DNA of 32,728 nucleotides from assembly GCA_023666775.1 (NCBI GenBank), contig JAMPBI010000004.1, positions 1-32,728 of the forward strand, in the 5' to 3' direction. Shown piece by piece: positions 929 through 11,003 of the stretch. How positions within the stretch are numbered: the first letter of the stretch is position 1; every line of letters begins with the position of its first letter. The DNA comes from Alistipes sp. (lineage in GTDB: Bacteria; Bacillota; Clostridia; Lachnospirales; Lachnospiraceae). The translations under genes and the position numbers were made by a program. The notes under the pieces are model-generated. The model ran no database searches and had not been told where the DNA came from. It saw only the letters and a program-made list of their open reading frames with translations.

Positions 929-1984
929 ATGTTTGGCGGAATCAATGATAATGACAGGAAAACTTTAATATTGGCAGGGCTATGTGCCGGCGTAACCGGG
1001 GTCGTATATTTTTTCTTTAAATATCTCCTATATCTGGTTGCGCCTTTTTTGGTGGGATTAATTTTGGCGGTTCTTATCAACAAACCGGTCTCTTTTATGA
1101 ACAGAAAGTTTAAGATCCACCCGATAATCGGAACGATATTTGTTATCGCGTCGGCTGCCGCGGTGTTTTCTTTCTGGCTTTCCTATGTAGGGACAAGATT
1201 TGTATTTGAGATAAAGAAATTTTTAATAAATTATCCCATTTACTATGACAAGGCGGTTGATTCCGTCTGCGATTTATGCTGCCGTATGGATACCACGCTG
1301 GGAATGGACGACGGGTGGACATATGCCCTTGTGGAGAGAAATGTTACCAGAACCATGTCGCAGGCGGCGGACAATATGCTGCCGTCGCTTATGCAGAGTT
1401 CCGCAGGCGTCATCACCACGGTCGTCATGTGGGGAGCGGGTATCGTTCTGGCGATCACGTCCGTTTTTTTTATGATAAAAGATGTAGATAAAATGGCGGC
1501 ATGGGTGAAGAACGGAGTATACAGCAAATGGTTCCGTATTCTTTTCGGCAGGCTTTCCCACTTCGGGGCGGCGTATCTGAAAACCCAGTTTGTTATCATG
1601 GCGATTACGGCAGTCATATGTACGCTGGCGATGTATCTTATCGGCAACGGATATCCCATTATGATCGGTATTCTTATAGGACTTCTCGACGCGCTTCCGC
1701 TGTTTGGTACCGGGACGGTGCTGATCCCATGGACGGTCATTTATCTGTTTGCGGGAAAATTTTATAAAGGGGCGATCGTATTTACGGCTTACGCGGTCTG
1801 CTATGTGGTCCGTGAGATCCTGGAGCCGAAAATGATGGGAGGACATATGGGGATCCCTCCCGTAGTTATGCTGATCACAATGTATATCGGTATTCTTTTA
1901 TTCGGATTGTTTGGCTTTATACTGGGACCCGCCGCTTATATCATCATTACGGAGGTAACGGCGTATTTGCGGAAGGTCATTTAA
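929..1984 (+). CDS. AI-2E / PerM-family membrane transporter
   Basis: This is an integral membrane protein of about 351 residues with roughly seven to eight hydrophobic segments. The first two helices come early (LAGLCAGVTGVVYFFF and YLVAPFLVGLILAVLI). A large soluble stretch with amphipathic helices lies around residues 75-155. The C-terminal half is rich in Gly and has the family pattern GLLDALPLFGTGTVLIPW followed by EPKMMGGHMGIPPVVMLI. That pattern is typical of the family named after TqsA/YdgG; members are associated with AI-2 export, proton-coupled ion transport (Bacillus TqsA-like antiporters) or unknown substrates. The substrate here cannot be assigned. The start is taken at ATG 929 on the strength of the upstream GGGTGATC; GTG 920 is the alternative. 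Confidence 0.85.
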   Translation: MFGGINDNDRKTLILAGLCAGVTGVVYFFFKYLLYLVAPFLVGLILAVLINKPVSFMNRKFKIHPIIGTIFVIASAAAVFSFWLSYVGTRFVFEIKKFLINYPIYYDKAVDSVCDLCCRMDTTLGMDDGWTYALVERNVTRTMSQAADNMLPSLMQSSAGVITTVVMWGAGIVLAITSVFFMIKDVDKMAAWVKNGVYSKWFRILFGRLSHFGAAYLKTQFVIMAITAVICTLAMYLIGNGYPIMIGILIGLLDALPLFGTGTVLIPWTVIYLFAGKFYKGAIVFTAYAVCYVVREILEPKMMGGHMGIPPVVMLITMYIGILLFGLFGFILGPAAYIIITEVTAYLRKVI

Positions 1985-2000
1985 AAAATTCCGCTTTTAC

Positions 2001-2029
2001 TTGCCAAGAAACCGCTTTCGGGTTATTAT
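2001..2029 (+). promoter_or_regulatory. Sigma-A-type promoter for the cheX-like/cheY-like pair
   Basis: A TTGCCA -35 box (2001-2006) and a TATTAT -10 box (2024-2029) are separated by exactly 17 bases, and each differs from consensus at one position. It sits in the 81-base gap between the transporter stop and the CheX-like start at 2066. Transcription would begin near 2036, leaving a leader of about 30 bases with an AGGAAGGA ribosome binding site. Confidence 0.65.
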
Positions 2030-2065
2030 AGTAGTAGTGATTTTGCGGAAAGGAAGGACTTTTAT

Positions 2066-2932
2066 ATGGTTGAATATATATTGGGGAATTATATGATATC
2101 CAAAGAACTTATGTCCAGAGAACAACTTGACCGCGTCTGTGAAAAACAGGATAAGATCCGGGTGAAGCTGGGGCTTATCGCCGTTTCCGAGGGGTATATG
2201 TCGGCAGGACAGGCGGAGGAAGTCAATCGGGAACAGGCTGTCTGCGATAAACGGTTCGGGGATATCGCGATAGAGAAAGGTTACATCACGCCCGCGCAGC
2301 TTGACAGGATATTGAAGCTGCAGGGGAATACATATTTGATCTTCGTTCAGGCGCTGGTGGACGAAGGAATTGTAAGTATCGAGGGTATGGAAGACGTTCT
2401 GGAGCGGTTCCGTAAGGAAAACGGCTATGGCAATTCGGAGATGGAAGTGTTAAAGTCCGATGACGTGGACAAAATCCTTCCGCTGTTCCTCCCGGCAAAG
2501 GCGGAGGAAGTGGAAGAGGTGATCCATATAGCCGTAAAAACAATACTCCGCTGTATTGACAGACATGTATATCCCGAACGCGCCTTTTTTGTGGATAAGC
2601 TGTCTACGGAAAACATGGTCATGCAGACGCTGGAGGGTGACATAACCTTGACTACGGCGTTTCAGGAGGACTCCGGGGCGATGGTTCTGCTGGCGGGGGC
2701 ATACGCCAGGGATAAGTTTAACGCGCTCGATGAGGAAGCGCTGGACTCGGCGGCGGAATTTCTGAACTGTATCAACGGAATGTATACGGCGGCGCTGGAA
2801 ACCAAATCGATCAGCACGGATCTGATACCGCCGGAATATGGTTCGGCAGAATGGGAAATAAATGAGGGCACGATCTGTAAAGTGCCTTTGTGGATACGAA
2901 ACAAGAAAATGTATTTTGTGGTTATTAAATAA
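2066..2932 (+). CDS. CheX/CheC-like phosphatase domain protein with N-terminal MshEN-like repeats
   Basis: A 288-residue soluble protein of two parts. Residues 1-115 contain three to four copies of a roughly 28-residue helical unit of the form LGxIAxxxGYIxxxQLDxxxxxQ (about 7-29, 36-58, 64-86 and a weaker one at 90-115). This resembles the GspE N-terminal/MshEN repeats, which in other proteins can bind c-di-GMP. Residues 130-288 look like CheC/CheX. The phosphatase signature [D/S]-x3-E-x2-N followed about 21-22 residues later by Pro is met by D227, E231, N234 and P255/P256. CheX dephosphorylates CheY-P. The adjacent CheY-like receiver, 15 bases downstream, is the obvious partner. The catalytic-signature match is visible; the ligand of the repeats is inference. 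No other chemotaxis gene is in the window. Confidence 0.75.
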   Translation: MVEYILGNYMISKELMSREQLDRVCEKQDKIRVKLGLIAVSEGYMSAGQAEEVNREQAVCDKRFGDIAIEKGYITPAQLDRILKLQGNTYLIFVQALVDEGIVSIEGMEDVLERFRKENGYGNSEMEVLKSDDVDKILPLFLPAKAEEVEEVIHIAVKTILRCIDRHVYPERAFFVDKLSTENMVMQTLEGDITLTTAFQEDSGAMVLLAGAYARDKFNALDEEALDSAAEFLNCINGMYTAALETKSISTDLIPPEYGSAEWEINEGTICKVPLWIRNKKMYFVVIK

Positions 2933-2947
2933 AGTGGAGGAATAATT

Positions 2948-3310
2948 ATGGCAACTGTATTAATTGTTGATGATTCGAAGACTTCAAGGAAAATTCTTCG
3001 GGGAATACTGGAAGGAGCGGGACATGTTATCGTAGGCGAGGGCGTCAACGGTGAAGAAGCGTTTTTAAGGTATAAGGAGCTGAGACCGGATATCGTTACG
3101 CTGGATATTACCATGCCGAAGATGGACGGGCTCGAGGCGCTGCAGATTTTAAAGAAGCAGGACGAAAACGCCAGAATAATCATGATCACGGCGTTGGGAC
3201 AGAAAGAGAAAATGATCCAGGCGGTTAAGTTCGGCGCGACGGAGTTCATCACCAAGCCTTTTGAAGATGAGGACGTTTTAAAGGCAGTAAATAAGGCGCT
3301 TGAGAATTAA
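2948..3310 (+). CDS. CheY-like single-domain response regulator
   Basis: A stand-alone receiver domain of 120 residues with no output domain. The acidic pocket is D8/D9 (VDDSK), the phosphoacceptor is D53 in TLDITMPKMDG, the switch threonine is T81 in MITALG, and the conserved lysine is K103 in TKPF. All essential residues are present. A strong GTGGAGG ribosome binding site precedes the ATG. It lies just after the CheX-like phosphatase, and the two probably form one signalling module with CheX as the brake on phosphorylation. It could act on the flagellar switch or on another process; no flagellar genes are visible here. Confidence 0.92.
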   Translation: MATVLIVDDSKTSRKILRGILEGAGHVIVGEGVNGEEAFLRYKELRPDIVTLDITMPKMDGLEALQILKKQDENARIIMITALGQKEKMIQAVKFGATEFITKPFEDEDVLKAVNKALEN

Positions 3311-3331
3311 GGCGGAATAAGGAGATTGATA

Positions 3332-4765
3332 ATGGCAGGAAATAAGAAGTTTGTTGAAGCGATCACTTCCATGGAGGAAGATTTTGCGCAGTGGTATACG
3401 GACATTGTAAAGAAGGCGGAACTGATCGATTATTCCAGCGTAAAAGGCTGTATGATCATTAAACCGGCAGGGTACGCGATCTGGGAGAATATCCAGAAAG
3501 AGCTGGACGCGCGGTTTAAGGAAACGGGCGTGGAAAACGTTTATATGCCGATGTTCATACCCGAAAGTCTTCTTCAGAAGGAGAAAGACCATGTGGAGGG
3601 GTTCGCGCCGGAAGTGGCGTGGGTGACCCACGGAGGATTGGAGCCGCTTTCGGAGAGGCTCTGCGTAAGACCGACTTCCGAGACGTTATTCTGTGATTAT
3701 TACGCGAATTGTGTGGAATCTTACAGGGATCTGCCGAAGCTTTCCAACCAGTGGTGTTCCGTAGTCCGCTGGGAGAAGGAGACAAGACCGTTCTTACGTT
3801 CCCGGGAATTTTTATGGCAGGAGGGACATACGGCGCACGCAACAGCGGAAGAAGCGCAGGAGAGGACCGTCCAGATGTTAAACCTTTATGCGGAATTTTT
3901 GGAAAATGTCCTTGCAATCCCGGTGATCAAGGGACAGAAGACCGAAAAGGAAAAGTTCGCGGGCGCAATCGCTACTTATACCGTGGAAGCGTTAATGCAT
4001 GACGGAAAGGCGCTGCAGTCGGGAACCAGCCACAATTTCGGCGACGGTTTCGCCAAGGCGTTTGATATTCAGTATACGGACAGGGACAATACGTTAAAAT
4101 ATGTTCATCAGACTTCATGGGGAATGACTACGAGGCTGATCGGCGCGATCATCATGGTTCACGGCGACGACAGAGGGCTTGTGCTTCCGCCGAAGATTGC
4201 TCCGGTTCAGGTCGCCGTTATTCCGATCCAGCAGAAGAAGGAAGGCGTTCTTGAAAAGGCGGCGCAGTTGAAGGAAGCGCTTTCCGGTTTCCGCGTGAAA
4301 GTGGACGATACGGACAAGAGTCCGGGGTGGAAGTTCTCGGAGCAGGAAATGAGAGGTATTCCGGTAAGGATTGAGATCGGACCGAAAGATATCGAAGCTG
4401 GTCAGTGCGTGGTGGTCCGAAGAGATACCGGTGAGAAGATACCGGTCCTGCTTGACGAGGTTTCTTCAAAGATACCGGAAATTCTTGATACCATGCAGAA
4501 GGAAATGCTTGAGAGGGCAAGAAAGCATAGGGATTCCCATACCTACACGGCAGTAACTTATGATGAATTTAAAGAGACGGTCGCGAATAAACCGGGCTTT
4601 ATAAAGGCTATGTGGTGCGGCGACGAGGCATGCGAGCTTAAAATAAAAGAAGAGACGACGGCAACGTCAAGGTGCATGCCGTTTGAGCAGGAGCAGTTAT
4701 CGGATAAATGCGTGTGCTGCGGAAGACCTGCGAAAAAAATGGTTTACTGGGGCAAAGCGTACTAA
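3332..4765 (+). CDS. proS: Prolyl-tRNA synthetase, archaeal/eukaryotic type
   Basis: It charges tRNA-Pro with proline in the cytoplasm. At about 477 residues it is the short archaeal/eukaryote-like form, which lacks the editing insertion of the E. coli-type enzyme and is common in Clostridia. Class II motif 2 is [20 protein letters not shown]. Motif 3 is in [18 protein letters not shown]. The anticodon-binding domain follows. The C-terminal extension has the family's cysteine-rich zinc-type segment (CGDEACE and [18 protein letters not shown]) and the terminal tyrosine. The start is ATG 3332, seven bases after AAGGAG at 3319-3324. A TTG at 3326 is too close to that site. Confidence 0.96.
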
Positions 4766-6181: not shown

Positions 6182-7159
6182 GTGGGGGTTTTTGAGCAAT
6201 ATGGAATATCAGTATACAGGACGGTAAGAGGAAGAGGGGCATTTATCTGTGAAACGAGCGACGGAATGAAGCTTCTGCGGGAGACGGCGTACTCGAAAGA
6301 AAAGTACGCAAAAGAAGATTTTGTGACCGGCTCATTGTATAATTCCGGTTATGAAGCGGTGGATATTTTCTGTAAAACCCTGACAGGAGAGTTGTTTGCG
6401 GAGGACGAGGAAAAGAAGAAATATTATCTCAAAAACTGGTTTGAGGCGGCGGAGTGCGACGTAAAAAATTACCATGACGTAATGGAGGCGGTGGCGGGTA
6501 TTGCGAAAGTGCATTTATATCTTAATAAAATACGGATCGATCAGCAGGAGCTTCCGTTCCGGATTCCCGTGGCAGAAAGCCTGAGGGACCGGTTTGGGCG
6601 AAAATATAAGGAAATGCGCTCGATCAACAATTATCTGAGAAAAAAGAAAAAGAAAACGGATTTTGAGAGAAAGGCGTGGGAAAATATGCAGGGATATCTG
6701 CGTGAAGCCCAGAGCGCCATGGAACTGCTGGAACAATTCGATTATGACAAATTGTTTCAGGGCGCCGTTGAGAATGGCGTACTTGTACACGGTTCCTGTA
6801 ACCATCACAACATACTGACCGGGAAAAATTATGTGGCGGTGGTTAATTTTGAGCGCGCACATATTAATTTACAGATAACGGACCTGTATGATTTTATGCG
6901 GAAGGTTCTGGAAAAGTATCAGTGGGATATTAAACTGGCATACCGCATGATTGACGAATACAACCGCTGCAAAACCATTCGCGGGGAGGAACTGAAACTT
7001 CTGGCGGTGCTGTTTGGGTATCCGGAAAAATATTTTAAGATCATGAACCATTATTATACCTCGTCAAAAGCTTGGATACCGGATAAGGATATTGAAAAAT
7101 TAAATGTGGTCGTAAAACAGAATGAGGCAAGATTAAGGTTTGTAGAATCCTTGAAATAA
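6182..7159 (+). CDS. CotS-like (spore-coat family) kinase-fold protein, probable pseudokinase
   Basis: A protein of 325 residues from the GTG start, resembling the CotS/CotI/YtaA spore-coat family, which shares the aminoglycoside phosphotransferase fold. The brackets are a nucleotide-loop-like region (YRTVRGRGAFICETSDGMKLLRE), a catalytic-loop-like HGSCNHHNIL at 203-212 and a DFD-like VVNFERAH at 220-227. A kinase would have HGD and an aspartate in the second motif. Here these are S205 and N222, while N210 is kept. The downstream pattern DLYDFMRKVLEKYQW is typical of the clostridial branch. A basic stretch, LRKKKKKT, lies before the catalytic loop. The protein therefore looks catalytically dead or altered. 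A role in the spore surface is inferred from the family only, and it stands alone between a terminator and a promoter. Confidence 0.7.
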   Translation: MGVFEQYGISVYRTVRGRGAFICETSDGMKLLRETAYSKEKYAKEDFVTGSLYNSGYEAVDIFCKTLTGELFAEDEEKKKYYLKNWFEAAECDVKNYHDVMEAVAGIAKVHLYLNKIRIDQQELPFRIPVAESLRDRFGRKYKEMRSINNYLRKKKKKTDFERKAWENMQGYLREAQSAMELLEQFDYDKLFQGAVENGVLVHGSCNHHNILTGKNYVAVVNFERAHINLQITDLYDFMRKVLEKYQWDIKLAYRMIDEYNRCKTIRGEELKLLAVLFGYPEKYFKIMNHYYTSSKAWIPDKDIEKLNVVVKQNEARLRFVESLK

Positions 7160-7179
7160 TCCGCAAAATAAAGTATAAT
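7151..7179 (+). promoter_or_regulatory. Near-consensus sigma-A promoter of the heptose/glycan operon
   Basis: TTGAAA (7151-7156) and a perfect TATAAT (7174-7179) are separated by 17 bases. The -35 box is formed by the last two codons of the CotS-like gene and overlaps its stop. Transcription would start near 7186, giving a leader of about 33 bases before the gmhA ATG at 7219. It is the only promoter of this quality seen ahead of the eleven-gene run to 18891. Confidence 0.8.
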
Positions 7180-7218
7180 AAAAAAGATTATATGTATTTT
7201 GACGGAAAGGACTTATTT

Positions 7219-7812
7219 ATGAAAGAGTATATCAGAAACAATATTGAGGAAAGTATCGATGCAAAGAAGAAACTGCTTGCGGACGACAGCCTCCTTTCCG
7301 TAGTAGAACAAGTCTCCCGTATTTGTATCGACGCTTATGAAAAGGGCAATAAAATATTAGTGTGCGGTAATGGCGGAAGCGCGTCGGACGCGCAGCATAT
7401 GGCAGGGGAACTGGTTGGAAGATATAAGATGGAACGGGCGGGGATCCCCGCAATCGCGTTGAATGCCAATACTGCCGTGATGACGGCATTGGGTAATGAT
7501 TACGATTATGACAGTATATTTGAAAAACAGGTGGCGGCGCTGGGGAAGAAAGAAGATATTTTATTTGTTATTTCCACAAGCGGTAATTCCCAAAATACGG
7601 TGCGTGCCTGCGAAGCGGCAAAAAAGATGGGGATAATAACCGTAGCCCTTACGGGAGCCAATGGCGGAATATTAAAAACACTATGCGATCATACGATCAA
7701 TGTGCCGTCGGATAATACTCCGCGGATTCAGGAAATGCATATTCTGATCATTCACAGTTTATGCGGGCTAATAGAAAAAGAATTGTATAACAGAGGATTT
7801 TTTGAGGATTGA
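7219..7812 (+). CDS. gmhA: Sedoheptulose-7-phosphate isomerase
   Basis: First step of ADP-heptose synthesis: sedoheptulose 7-phosphate to D-glycero-D-manno-heptose 7-phosphate, in the cytoplasm. It is a 197-residue SIS-domain protein, about the length of E. coli GmhA. Visible signatures are CGNGGSASDAQHMAGELVGRY, containing the active-site glutamate of the AGE segment, the phosphate-binding ISTSGNSQN, and RIQEMHILIIHSLC with the catalytic-type histidine. The start is ATG 7219, seven bases after GGAAAGGA (7204-7211); the in-frame ATG at 7192 has no ribosome binding site and would include it. It is the first gene after the promoter at 7151-7179, and gmhB follows after three bases. DiaA/LpcA-like SIS proteins are the alternative, but the context makes GmhA secure. 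Confidence 0.94.
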   Translation: MKEYIRNNIEESIDAKKKLLADDSLLSVVEQVSRICIDAYEKGNKILVCGNGGSASDAQHMAGELVGRYKMERAGIPAIALNANTAVMTALGNDYDYDSIFEKQVAALGKKEDILFVISTSGNSQNTVRACEAAKKMGIITVALTGANGGILKTLCDHTINVPSDNTPRIQEMHILIIHSLCGLIEKELYNRGFFED

Positions 7813-7815
7813 TCG

Positions 7816-8337
7816 ATGAGAAAGGCTGTTTTTCTGGATAGGGACGGGACGATTAACGAGGAAGTAGACTATCTGCATGAATGTGACAAACTGAAATTTA
7901 TTCCCGGTACGGAGGAAGCGTTAAGAATTTTAAAGGAAAAAGGGTATCTTCTTATTGTTGTCACCAATCAGTCCGGCGTGGGCAGAGGATATTACCCGCT
8001 GGAAGACGTGTATCGGGTACACCGGTACATGAATGAACTGCTGAGGAAAAGCAATGCGGAGATAGACGGTTTTTACTGCTGCCCTCATGTGGAAGAGGAT
8101 CATTGCGGCTGCCGTAAACCGGAGGCGGGAATGTATTTAGAGGCGCAGAAGGATTTTGATATCGATCTGAAACAGTCGTATATGGTTGGAGACAAAGTAA
8201 CGGATATCCTTGCGGCAAAAAAACTTGGCTGCGGAGTCGGATTACTGCTTTCCGGGCATGATATAAATGAGGAATACCGCATACAATATGAAAAAGATTG
8301 TTACGGAAATCTGCTGGAGTTTGCGAGGGCAATATAG
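7816..8337 (+). CDS. gmhB: D-glycero-D-manno-heptose 1,7-bisphosphate 7-phosphatase
   Basis: Third step of the pathway: removal of the 7-phosphate from heptose 1,7-bisphosphate. It is a 173-residue HAD-IIIA phosphatase. Motif I is FLDRDGT with D8 (nucleophile) and D10 (acid/base). Motif II is VVTNQSGVGRG around T50. The zinc loop is C89-P-H91 with C97-G-C99 ahead of RKPEAGM, and motif IV is MVGDKVTDI. The zinc loop and the CRKP element are hallmarks of GmhB and HisB-N and separate it from general HAD phosphatases. The histidinol-phosphatase alternative is unlikely because no his genes are near. It is translationally close to gmhA (three-base gap). Confidence 0.93.
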   Translation: MRKAVFLDRDGTINEEVDYLHECDKLKFIPGTEEALRILKEKGYLLIVVTNQSGVGRGYYPLEDVYRVHRYMNELLRKSNAEIDGFYCCPHVEEDHCGCRKPEAGMYLEAQKDFDIDLKQSYMVGDKVTDILAAKKLGCGVGLLLSGHDINEEYRIQYEKDCYGNLLEFARAI

Positions 8338-8349
8338 AAAGAGACAGAG

Positions 8350-9549
8350 ATGGGATTAAAAGGAAAGATTGATAAGTTATTAAGATGGGGAAAGATCTGG
8401 CGGGCGCAGTTTACCGCGGCAAAAACGCAAAACGCGAGATGTGGGGCAGGCAGCGGCAAGGTTCTGGTAATAAAGTCCGACGCCATAGGAGATTTCCTGA
8501 TCTGGCTGGACAGCGCCAAAGAGCTTAGAACACTGTATGAAGGTAAATGTATTGTATTGATATGCAGCAGTCCGTGTGTGGAGATCGCGAAGGCAACGGG
8601 ATATTTTGATGAGATCCTTACGCTGGATATCCGCAGGTTTGAAAGCGATACGGCATACCGGAAAGAAATGATACGGCAGTTTAGCGGTCTTTCGTTTGAT
8701 ACGCTGATACAGACGGCGTTTTCCAGAACCGTGCATATGGACATGCTGGCGGCAGTCATTCCCGCTACGGAAAAAATCGGTCTGGTTTCCGATGAATCCC
8801 GCACCAATTTAAGCCGTTATATCGTTACAAAATCCAATAAAAAGAAACTGGATTCCGTTTATGATAAGCTAATCCCCGTAACGGACGGGTGGCTTATGGA
8901 AGTTAAAAGGAACGGCGAGCTGATACGGGGGCTGGGTAGGAAGGACTTTAAAACAGGCATGCCTGTACTAAAACCATATGACGTGAGAGACGGAATTATT
9001 CCGAAAGGCGATTACTTTATAATTTTTCCGGGAGCAAGCACGCCGAAAAAGATGTGGAATATTAAAAGTTTCGGGGAAATCGCGGATTATGTCTGTGAAA
9101 AAACAGGCTGGATCGCGTATGCTTGCGGCGGTCGCGACGAGCAGTATCTCTACGGGCGGCTTGACAGGACAGGCATTGTGGATTATTTCGGAAAGACGAC
9201 TCTGATGGAGCTTGCGGAAGTGATCCGTCACGCAAGGCTTGTGATCAGTAACGACACCAGCGGGATCCATTTTGCGGCGGCGGTCAATACACCGTCCGTC
9301 TGTATTTTAGGCGAATATAATTACGGAAGATTTCTTCCTTATGACTATGACAGGGAATATGGAAGCGAGTTAAAGCCGATGATCGTGTGCCATGCCGATA
9401 TGCCGTGTAAAAGGTGCGCGGCAGGAAAAATGACGTCGGAATGTAACGCGTGCATGGCGGCAACGGGAAGGTATCTTTGTGTGGAGAAGGTAACGGTTTC
9501 CCAGGTAAAGGAAGCCGTGGACAAGATAATAAACACTTACGGGGAGTAG
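8350..9549 (+). CDS. Glycosyltransferase family 9 (heptosyltransferase-like) with C-terminal Cys cluster
   Basis: A GT-B glycosyltransferase of 399 residues, related to the heptosyltransferases that use ADP-heptose. The N-domain starts KVLVIKSDAIGDFLIW (residues 38-53), the usual acceptor-side GD motif. The donor domain has FPGASTPKKMW near 225-235, then HARLVISNDTSGIHFAAAVNTPSVCILG near 297-325. The NDTSGxxH block is the family's donor-site signature. Cysteines at 347, 353, 356, 365, 368 and 377 form a spaced cluster that looks able to bind metal; shorter Cys sets occur in many GT9 proteins and in the iron-finger TibC/BAHT heptosyltransferases. It sits between gmhB and hldE, so ADP-heptose is the likely donor. 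The acceptor (glycan, lipid or protein) is unknown. Confidence 0.87.
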   Translation: MGLKGKIDKLLRWGKIWRAQFTAAKTQNARCGAGSGKVLVIKSDAIGDFLIWLDSAKELRTLYEGKCIVLICSSPCVEIAKATGYFDEILTLDIRRFESDTAYRKEMIRQFSGLSFDTLIQTAFSRTVHMDMLAAVIPATEKIGLVSDESRTNLSRYIVTKSNKKKLDSVYDKLIPVTDGWLMEVKRNGELIRGLGRKDFKTGMPVLKPYDVRDGIIPKGDYFIIFPGASTPKKMWNIKSFGEIADYVCEKTGWIAYACGGRDEQYLYGRLDRTGIVDYFGKTTLMELAEVIRHARLVISNDTSGIHFAAAVNTPSVCILGEYNYGRFLPYDYDREYGSELKPMIVCHADMPCKRCAAGKMTSECNACMAATGRYLCVEKVTVSQVKEAVDKIINTYGE

Positions 9550-9551
9550 AT

Positions 9552-11003
9552 ATGACGAAGGAAATGATACAAAATATGGCAGGGAAACCAAAAAATTTTT
9601 TGGTGATCGGCGATATCATGCTGGACAAGTTCTGTAACGGAAAGATTAACCGTATTTCACCGGAGGCTCCGGTTCCGGTCCTGCGTTATCAGAATGAAAA
9701 AAATATCCTGGGCGGCGCGGCGAACGTGGCTACCAATCTGGTGGGTATCGGACAGAAAGTTGCCTTGATGGCGTGCGTAGGTACGGATAAAGCGGGAGAT
9801 GAAGTGCGCCGTCTGCTCTCGGAAGCGGGGATCGACGCGGAGATGGTTGTTTCGGAAGAATGCCGTCCGACGACGGTAAAAACAAGATTTGTCGCGGGAC
9901 ATCAGCAGCTTCTCCGTGTAGACGACGAGAGTACAAAGGAACTGGAAGAGAAAACAAAAGAAGCGGTTCTTGAATGCTATAAAAGAAGAATAAAAGAATT
10001 TGACTTAATACTGATATCCGATTATATGAAAGGAATGCTGTCGTATGATTTTACCCGGCAATTGATTCAGACGGCGCATAGCGCGGGTAAAAAAGTTATT
10101 GTGGACGTAAAAGATTTGAATGCCGCAAAATACGCGGGTTCCTATCTTTTAAAGCCCAACCGTAAGGAACTGCATGAATTGACCGGTTTACCTGTTGAGA
10201 CGATGGACGACGTGGTGGAGGCGATGAAGGAACTTCGCGCAAGAGCGGAATGTAAATGCGTTCTCGCGACATTAAGCGGCGACGGCATGGCGTTTTTGGG
10301 TGAAGATGACACGGTACTGTTTGAAAAATGTGATTCCAGAAAGGTATATGACGTGGTGGGAGCAGGCGACACGGCGTTTGCCTATGTGGCGGCGGCGCTT
10401 GGTTTCGGACTTTCGCCAAGGGATATGTTAAGACTTTCCAATACGGCGTCTTCCATTAAAGTTACCCGTTTTGGCACGTCGGTTGTCACGCTGGGAGACG
10501 TGACGGACGAACTGTACCATGAAGTGAACAAGATACAGTCGGTTGATACGATCGAAGGCGCGCTTTTAAGGCATAGAGACAAGAAAATCGTATTTACGAA
10601 CGGCTGTTTTGACATTCTTCATATCGGACATATCCGTTATCTCAAAGAGGCAAAGGCAAAAGGAGATATTCTTGTGCTGGGACTCAATTCCGACGAATCG
10701 GTGAAGCGGTTAAAAGGACCTCAGAGACCGGTCAATAAACAGCAGGACAGGATCGATATGCTGGCGGAAATGGAGTTTATTGATTATGTGGTAGTTTTTG
10801 AGGAGGATACGCCGTATGAGCTGATCACGAGAGTGAAGCCGGATATTTTGATCAAAGGCGGCGATTACGAGCCGGACAGGATCGTCGGCGCGGATTTTGT
10901 CCGTTCCAACGGCGGAACCGTTGAAGTGATTCCGTTCGTGGAAGGAAAATCAACCACAAATATCATCAATGCAATGAAGCGGCTGGAAGGAGAAACAGAA
11001 TGA
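9552..11003 (+). CDS. hldE: Bifunctional heptose-7-phosphate kinase / heptose-1-phosphate adenylyltransferase
   Basis: It performs steps two and four of ADP-heptose synthesis: phosphorylation of heptose 7-phosphate at C1, and later AMP transfer to heptose 1-phosphate. It has 483 residues, close to E. coli HldE. Residues 1-320 form a PfkB/ribokinase domain with GDIMLDKF, RISPEAPVPVL, GGAAN at 54-58 and the catalytic VVGAGDTAF (GAGD 270-273). Residues about 345-483 form a cytidylyltransferase-like domain with FTNGCFDILHIGHIRYL (HIGH 357-360) and the loop IKGGDY. Both active sites look intact. The start is ATG 9552 after GGGGAG (9541-9546); an upstream ATG at 9450 would overlap the GT9 gene by 100 bases and adds residues outside the fold. 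It overlaps hldD by ATGA. Confidence 0.96.
   Translation: MTKEMIQNMAGKPKNFLVIGDIMLDKFCNGKINRISPEAPVPVLRYQNEKNILGGAANVATNLVGIGQKVALMACVGTDKAGDEVRRLLSEAGIDAEMVVSEECRPTTVKTRFVAGHQQLLRVDDESTKELEEKTKEAVLECYKRRIKEFDLILISDYMKGMLSYDFTRQLIQTAHSAGKKVIVDVKDLNAAKYAGSYLLKPNRKELHELTGLPVETMDDVVEAMKELRARAECKCVLATLSGDGMAFLGEDDTVLFEKCDSRKVYDVVGAGDTAFAYVAAALGFGLSPRDMLRLSNTASSIKVTRFGTSVVTLGDVTDELYHEVNKIQSVDTIEGALLRHRDKKIVFTNGCFDILHIGHIRYLKEAKAKGDILVLGLNSDESVKRLKGPQRPVNKQQDRIDMLAEMEFIDYVVVFEEDTPYELITRVKPDILIKGGDYEPDRIVGADFVRSNGGTVEVIPFVEGKSTTNIINAMKRLEGETE

Follow-up and report, generated by a model that had tools for sequence, protein, structure and literature searches.

A clostridial CheX-like protein with a putative MshEN-type receptor domain, encoded next to a lone CheY-type receiver

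A gene pair found in a clostridial draft genome (G000; 2.29 Mb, 310 contigs, 78% complete) is best read as a two-gene signalling module attached to the CheA core, in which an MshEN-type receptor is carried by a CheX phosphatase that would act on the adjoining receiver; we hold this reading to be somewhat probable. Its observed basis consists of the domain identities, the fold, the active- and ligand-site residues, the pairing of the two genes, their fusions, and the co-occurrence with CheW-domain and GGDEF genes. From these observations we infer a scheme in which CheA would phosphorylate the lone CheY-type receiver (2948-3310) and the CheX domain would remove the phosphate from this presumed target, with catalysis assigned to the E231/N234 pair. 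The central repeat pair (residues 34-86) would serve as an MshEN-type receptor for a cyclic dinucleotide, c-di-GMP being the likeliest; the bound messenger would set, as an activator or as an inhibitor, either the phosphatase activity or the access of the phosphatase to the receiver.

The window, which is the whole stretch of 32,728 nucleotides that was analysed, holds both genes on the forward strand. The gene of the MshEN-CheX protein (2066-2932) starts with ATG and encodes 288 amino acids, an assignment based on the open reading frame, a profile, the alignment and a structure model. After a gap of 15 nt it is followed by the receiver gene (2948-3310, also starting with ATG), the 120-residue product of which was identified by Pfam and alignment and is the likely substrate. 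An earlier note on this DNA had proposed such a pair, a CheX-type protein with MshEN-like repeats beside a lone CheY-like receiver; both reading frames were found at the positions given there and both domain assignments were confirmed. The pair lies between the gene of an AI-2E-family transporter (920-1984; Pfam E 5.3e-43) and a proline-tRNA-ligase-like gene that begins at 3326 and was named by reading its translation. The closest named relatives are MAGs labelled mostly as Lachnospiraceae, and also as Eubacteriaceae and Thermoflexaceae. A promoter-like site, TTGCCA-17-TATTAT, precedes the two genes (2001-2029, forward strand); it is a consensus match only (10/12) and counts as weak evidence, because the region contains five such sites and its shuffles 2.5 ± 1.7. 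The window gave no match to a riboswitch or other Rfam RNA, and no terminator was found in 1850-3450. A flagellar sigma promoter (TAAA-N14-16-GCCGATAT) upstream of the MshEN-CheX gene was also considered and rejected: 10 or 11 of 12 positions matched in 7 of 81 upstream regions, compared with about three expected from mononucleotide shuffles, and the best match in the window itself scored 8/12.

The N-terminal part of the 288-residue protein consists of four repeats with a spacing of 29 residues. When residues 1-118 were compared with themselves, the top score was found at a lag of 29 and the next at 58, and none of 2000 shuffles came up to the lag-29 score anywhere between lags 10 and 59. The earlier note had counted three to four copies in residues 1-115; four are present. 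Repeat 1 (residues 5-28; 2078-2149, forward strand, as are the others) is degenerate by alignment and self-comparison and lacks R/K at motif position 1. Repeat 2 (residues 34-57; 2165-2236) corresponds to MshEN motif I, with K34, L35, G36 and Q57 in place and with Ala50 and Asn54 in place of the consensus Leu, as seen in the alignment and in the structural match to MshE. Repeat 3 (residues 63-86; 2252-2323) was recognised by profile and alignment as MshEN motif II and carries R63, F64, G65, D66, L79, L83 and Q86. Repeat 4 (residues 92-115; 2339-2410) is again degenerate by alignment and self-comparison, without RLG and without the Gln. The suggestion that the repeats carry a ligand motif thus holds for the middle two and fails for the outer ones, as repeats 1 and 4 lack the initial R/K and repeat 4 also lacks G and Q.

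The middle pair reproduces the MshEN motif of 24+5+24 residues exactly (34-57, 58-62 and 63-86). A profile search for MshEN, which had been proposed as a check, returned NCBIfam NF053729 (c-di-GMP motif, MshE-related) with 63.3 bits for the window protein, the cut-off being 38 (E 1.3e-17), and the same profile matches all 67 members of alignment A2. An AlphaFold2 model of the 288-residue protein was built on this alignment, with a mean pLDDT of 93.1. Residues 32-89 of the model superpose on c-di-GMP-bound MshE (5htl) with a Foldseek rmsd of 1.0-1.2 Å over 55-56 columns at 34% identity (Z 11.0), the Foldseek E of 0.14-0.24 being modest because the common piece is short. The model also superposes on the c-di-GMP-bound GSPII-B domain of PilF (8pdk; Z 10.4). 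Since the motif and structure matches fall on residues 32-89, the equivalent of MshEN_N is the middle repeat pair; an MshEN_C-like match was not seen in the 288-residue protein. Pfam matches to the fumarase C-terminus and to DUF4388 cover one repeat each and stay below their cut-offs. These were taken to reflect a common helical hairpin rather than a function.

The receiver possesses the expected residues D8, D9, D53, T81 and K103 (Pfam E 2.1e-30) and has no output domain. Among 85 paired receivers, which include those of L006, L007, L010, L012, G091 and G138, these positions are kept almost throughout (D8 in 85, D9 in 84, D53 in 85, T/S81 in 84 and K103 in 85). The paired receivers also share a surface of their own, with K88 in 73, K94 in 84 and Q85 in 83 of the 85. 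The possibility that the lone receiver is the flagellar CheY was ruled out. In a tree of 121 columns for 114 rows, of which only the flagellar clade was used, the CheYs of flagellar operons (23 loci) form a clade of their own with support 98/93 and the paired receivers fall outside it; many fixed positions differ. In addition, the source genome has a separate flagellar-type CheY on another contig (G000:C247), with flagellar-type genes adjoining it.

The association between the two genes was followed through 80 loci, found with peptide patterns on residues 32-41 and 61-69 of the MshEN-CheX protein. In 79 of these loci of the best relatives, a receiver gene begins at most about 82 nt downstream of the MshEN-CheX gene. 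The remaining locus, L080, has an IS110-like transposase reading frame (7010-8257, identified by reading) between the MshEN-CheX gene and the receiver (8514-8873). A further 39 loci, several of which repeat loci already examined, have the receiver downstream in 29 cases, upstream in three and fused into one polypeptide in five; none was found in two (L198 and L201). In L007 (also L117; genome G012), the MshEN-CheX gene is interrupted early on by an in-frame TAA (2269-2271). This copy was omitted from alignment A1, and for the further loci and the 53-mers it was read from behind the stop only.

The distribution was analysed in a family sample of 150 genomes, 51 of which match the profile and 49 of which have the full-length protein, as G099 and G133 match in the CheX part only and were left out. 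CheW-domain genes are present in 48 of the 49 carriers against 32 of the 101 others (Fisher 1.8e-16), FliG in 44/49 against 34/101 (p 2.5e-11) and GGDEF in 49/49 against 80/101 (p 2.2e-4), where the p-values are descriptive and overstate independence because the genomes are related. GGDEF genes also occur in all 51 genomes with any match, and are common in the family regardless of the module. Of 196 genomes sampled across the class, 11 match, four of them in other families. The source genome has CheA and CheW genes and, away from the pair, genes taken by reading for CheC and CheD.

The carriers without a FliG match are G000, the genome of which is incomplete, and G066, G089, G138 and G091. Three of these, G066, G089 and G138, are 96-100% complete and have CheW genes but no FliG, and all three keep the module. 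Motility was rejected as the best correlate on account of these three near-complete genomes. On the contigs of G089 (L129) and G138 (L128), CheA, CheW, CheC and CheD genes stand in rows, CheW being assigned by profile and the others by reading translations, which suggests that the chemosensory core was apparently kept after the loss of flagella. The earlier note had advised a comparison of motile with non-motile relatives; its outcome is sharper than motility as such, since it is the CheA/CheW genes, and not the flagellum, that the module follows (CheW 48/49, FliG 44/49). The only carrier without a CheW match, G091, has a pair (L130, 6105-7424) in which D9 of the receiver is changed to A (DD to DA), E231 of CheX to D and G238 to A; a decay after the loss of CheA is possible. 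G148, with a weak CheW match, has neither FliG nor the module. The type IV pilus ATPase was also considered as a marker of the organelle behind the module and rejected. With PilB approximated by a best PF00437 E under 1e-100, it was found in 30/49 carriers against 41/101 others (p 0.02), and it is not the common denominator since 19 carriers lack it. PF00437 itself matches all 150 genomes, which we ascribe to Tad-type ATPases matching it too.

What the receiver would do with its phosphate can be read in two ways, and both a phosphate sink and a private target are allowed because the receiver lacks an output domain and a separate flagellar CheY exists. As a sink, the receiver would draw phosphate off CheA, the MshEN-CheX protein would set the rate at which it is emptied, and the messenger would tune the flagellar CheY-P indirectly. 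This is a possible reading, to be held tentatively, and it is compatible with the module proposed above. It is favoured by the separate flagellar CheY clade (98/93) with the paired receivers outside, by the missing output domain and by the way in which the module tracks CheW; however, the distinct receiver surface (K88, K94, Q85) would fit a private output partner as well, and the three genomes that keep the module without FliG speak against a sink.

The ligand site of MshE provides the standard against which the repeats can be judged. According to the accessible text of PMC5013675, its half-sites consist of R9/R38, L10/L39, G11/G40, a Leu pair (L25/L29 or L54/L58) and Q32/Q61; the equivalents in the window protein are K34/R63, L35/F64, G36/G65, A50/N54 or L79/L83, and Q57/Q86. 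The absence of nucleotide-binding residues from the repeats had been named beforehand as one observation that would overturn the proposal; K34, G36, Q57, R63, G65 and Q86 are all present. G36, Q57, G65 and Q86 are invariant in 118/118 distinct 53-mers (from 128 extracted, the later ones by means of a pattern in residues 63-68 that again favours this stretch). At motif position 1, where the extended consensus has R, K or L, the window protein has K34 and R63, and K or R stands at each in 117/118. Lys at this position is compatible with very tight c-di-GMP binding in PilF, as described in the available part of PMC11731258. Position 64 is Phe in 117/118. Position 50 (motif position 17) is Ala in 96/118, otherwise Val, Thr or Ser and never Leu, and position 54 (motif position 21) is Asn in 110/118 and His in six, with Gly and Asp also seen and never a hydrophobic residue. 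Conservation inside residues 32-41 and 61-69 is partly built in, because the 80 loci were selected by those stretches; Q57, Q86, A50, N54, L79 and L83 lie outside the selection patterns.

These replacements are confined to one side of the site. In the first guanine pocket, A50, N54 (or His) and F64 take the places of Leu25, Leu29 and Leu39 of MshE, while the second is intact, with L35, L79 (or Val/Ile) and L83 together with Arg63. We take the first guanine pocket to be remodelled and the second to be of the standard type, with selection acting on them. MshE with such changes still binds to some degree: in the accessible text of PMC5013675, c-di-GMP still stabilises the protein with L25A alone, and L58A causes a ten-fold loss of affinity. 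The idea of the earlier note, that a second messenger is coupled to dephosphorylation of the receiver, can accordingly be kept in part. The profile, the fold, the pairing, the fusions and GGDEF in 51/51 speak for the domains as named, for a coupling to the receiver and for c-di-GMP as the likely messenger; the weak point is that one guanine pocket departs from the tested consensus at three contacts. A PilB-type ATPase of the same genome (L165, G000:C12) has a good first MshEN motif and a second one without the final Gln.

The same departure could be taken to mean that the repeats no longer bind a nucleotide, and that they form a four-repeat scaffold, used for dimerisation or receiver docking, on an unregulated dedicated CheX phosphatase. 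Two of the three Leu contacts in one guanine pocket have become small or polar, repeats 1 and 4 are degenerate, and a loss of binding by such changes is documented among MshEN relatives in the accessible text of PMC5013675, for instance in XpsE, a non-binder that differs, among other things, by an Arg in place of Leu29. However, both Gly and both Gln are kept in 118/118, and the replacing residues are conserved in their turn (N54 in 110, F64 in 117), unlike what decay would leave behind. Even G091, the catalytic residues of which have slipped, still has both Gln, both Gly and N54. A scaffold that has lost its ligand is for these reasons rather unlikely.

In the module as we propose it, the output of the receptor is the CheX domain (residues 143-288; 2492-2929, forward strand), which was identified by profile search and fold matches. 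The CheX part of the model superposes on CheX (1squ) with Z 15.8 over 144 residues at an rmsd of 2.8, and on the CheX chain of the Borrelia CheX-CheY complex (3hzh_B) with Z 15.7 over 140 residues at 2.5. FliM (Z 10.8) and CheC (Z 8.1) rank below it, and folds that scored under Z 5, H-NOX among them, were disregarded. When the PDB sequences were searched with the family profile, CheX also came first (E 6e-6), with E231/N234 aligned on the ELGN of Thermotoga maritima CheX. The sequence identity to CheX is remote (20%), and the window protein does not reach the gathering score of Pfam CheX PF13690 (20.4 bits against 27), while 59/67 family members match it at E 0.01 or better, which is a different test from gathering. 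Because the Pfam cut-off is a score threshold and not a structural feature, the domain was classed, on its fold and residues, with the CheX-like proteins as a remote member.

The phosphatase signature D227...E231xxN234 (2744-2767, forward strand) lies on the long CheX helix, as judged from the alignment to the T. maritima ELGN and from the model. E and N of the ExxN motif are the catalytic residues in CheX. The signature with its Pro, as described from the window alone, was borne out across 89 distinct homologues (92 rows less three identical ones): D227 is kept in 88, E231 in 88, N234 in 89 and P255 in 88. It could still be argued that the domain is a binding partner that senses the phosphorylation of the receiver, and no phosphatase, as is thought for CheC with CheD. 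Proteins of the CheC family can work chiefly as regulated binders, and the similarity to CheX is remote (20% identity). Yet E231 and N234 are almost invariant, and the fold is nearer to the CheX of the CheX-CheY complex than to CheC (Z 15.7 against 8.1), which makes this reading improbable. A second CheX-like family without MshEN repeats was observed in L015, L016 and L017, beside a truA-like gene; a guaB-like gene, named by reading, lies upstream of the CheX-only relative in L016 and L017, and in L016 that relative is followed by a receiver gene of its own. L013 is too close to the contig end for judgement.

That the ligand is another cyclic dinucleotide, e.g., 3',3'-cGAMP, accommodated by a remodelled first pocket (Ala50/Asn54/Phe64) beside the intact second, is the least probable of these alternatives: the replacement is conserved, coordinated and restricted to one base pocket, and MshE itself binds cGAMP weakly, but MshE reads the guanine edge through backbone amides, which side-chain changes would not affect (both from the accessible text of PMC5013675), and all carriers have GGDEF genes.

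Compared with the MshEN domains of MshE and PilB/PilF, as described in the available parts of PMC5013675 and PMC11731258, the window protein shares the 53-residue motif of 24+5+24, the four-helix fold (1.0-1.2 Å), both Gly, both Gln and the Lys/Arg at position 1. It differs by Ala/Asn (or His)/Phe for Leu25/Leu29/Leu39 around guanine 1, by two degenerate flanking repeats, and by an output that is CheX and not an ATPase. The combination as such has been noted before: in PMC5013675, Wang et al. 2016 name the occurrence of MshEN with CheX in one sentence, and that passage, as far as the text was accessible, gives neither a family nor a partner, a pocket analysis or an experiment. A search of titles and beginnings of abstracts on MshEN, CheX, c-di-GMP and CheY-P phosphatases, with a coverage mostly outside subscription journals, found no such protein beyond this sentence. 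The MshEN-CheX combination is thus known since 2016, and what is added here is the receiver pairing, the fusions, the link to CheA and the pocket variant.

The CheX proteins of T. maritima and Borrelia burgdorferi (1squ, 3hzh) share the fold of residues 143-288 and the ExxN pair, but their chains are single domains of about 155 residues, whereas here a receptor-like N-terminal domain is added. CheC-CheD of Bacillus subtilis and T. maritima represents the same superfamily and the same idea of a regulated CheY-P phosphatase; in contrast to CheC, which uses the protein partner CheD, a built-in small-molecule domain is proposed here.

A broader reading may be put forward as a speculation that we think less likely than the module itself. 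A clostridial lineage would wire a second messenger into the chemosensory phosphate flow, by means of a variant MshEN that binds c-di-GMP or another cyclic dinucleotide and allosterically controls a CheX dedicated to a second, non-flagellar CheY; this circuit may outlive the flagellum, with CheA then serving another output. c-di-GMP is the usual swim-or-stick signal. If true, the circuit would constitute a direct link between c-di-GMP and chemosensory phosphorylation in gut bacteria of the Lachnospiraceae type, and the conserved change in the pocket would offer a natural test of how far the ligand rules of MshEN reach.

Elsewhere in the window, at 7192-11003, genes for a SIS-domain (GmhA-like), a HAD (GmhB-like), a glycosyltransferase family 9 and a PfkB+cytidylyltransferase (HldE-like) protein stand in a row and are followed by glycosyltransferases. 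By reading, this row resembles a pathway to ADP-heptose, here in a lineage that is Gram-positive.
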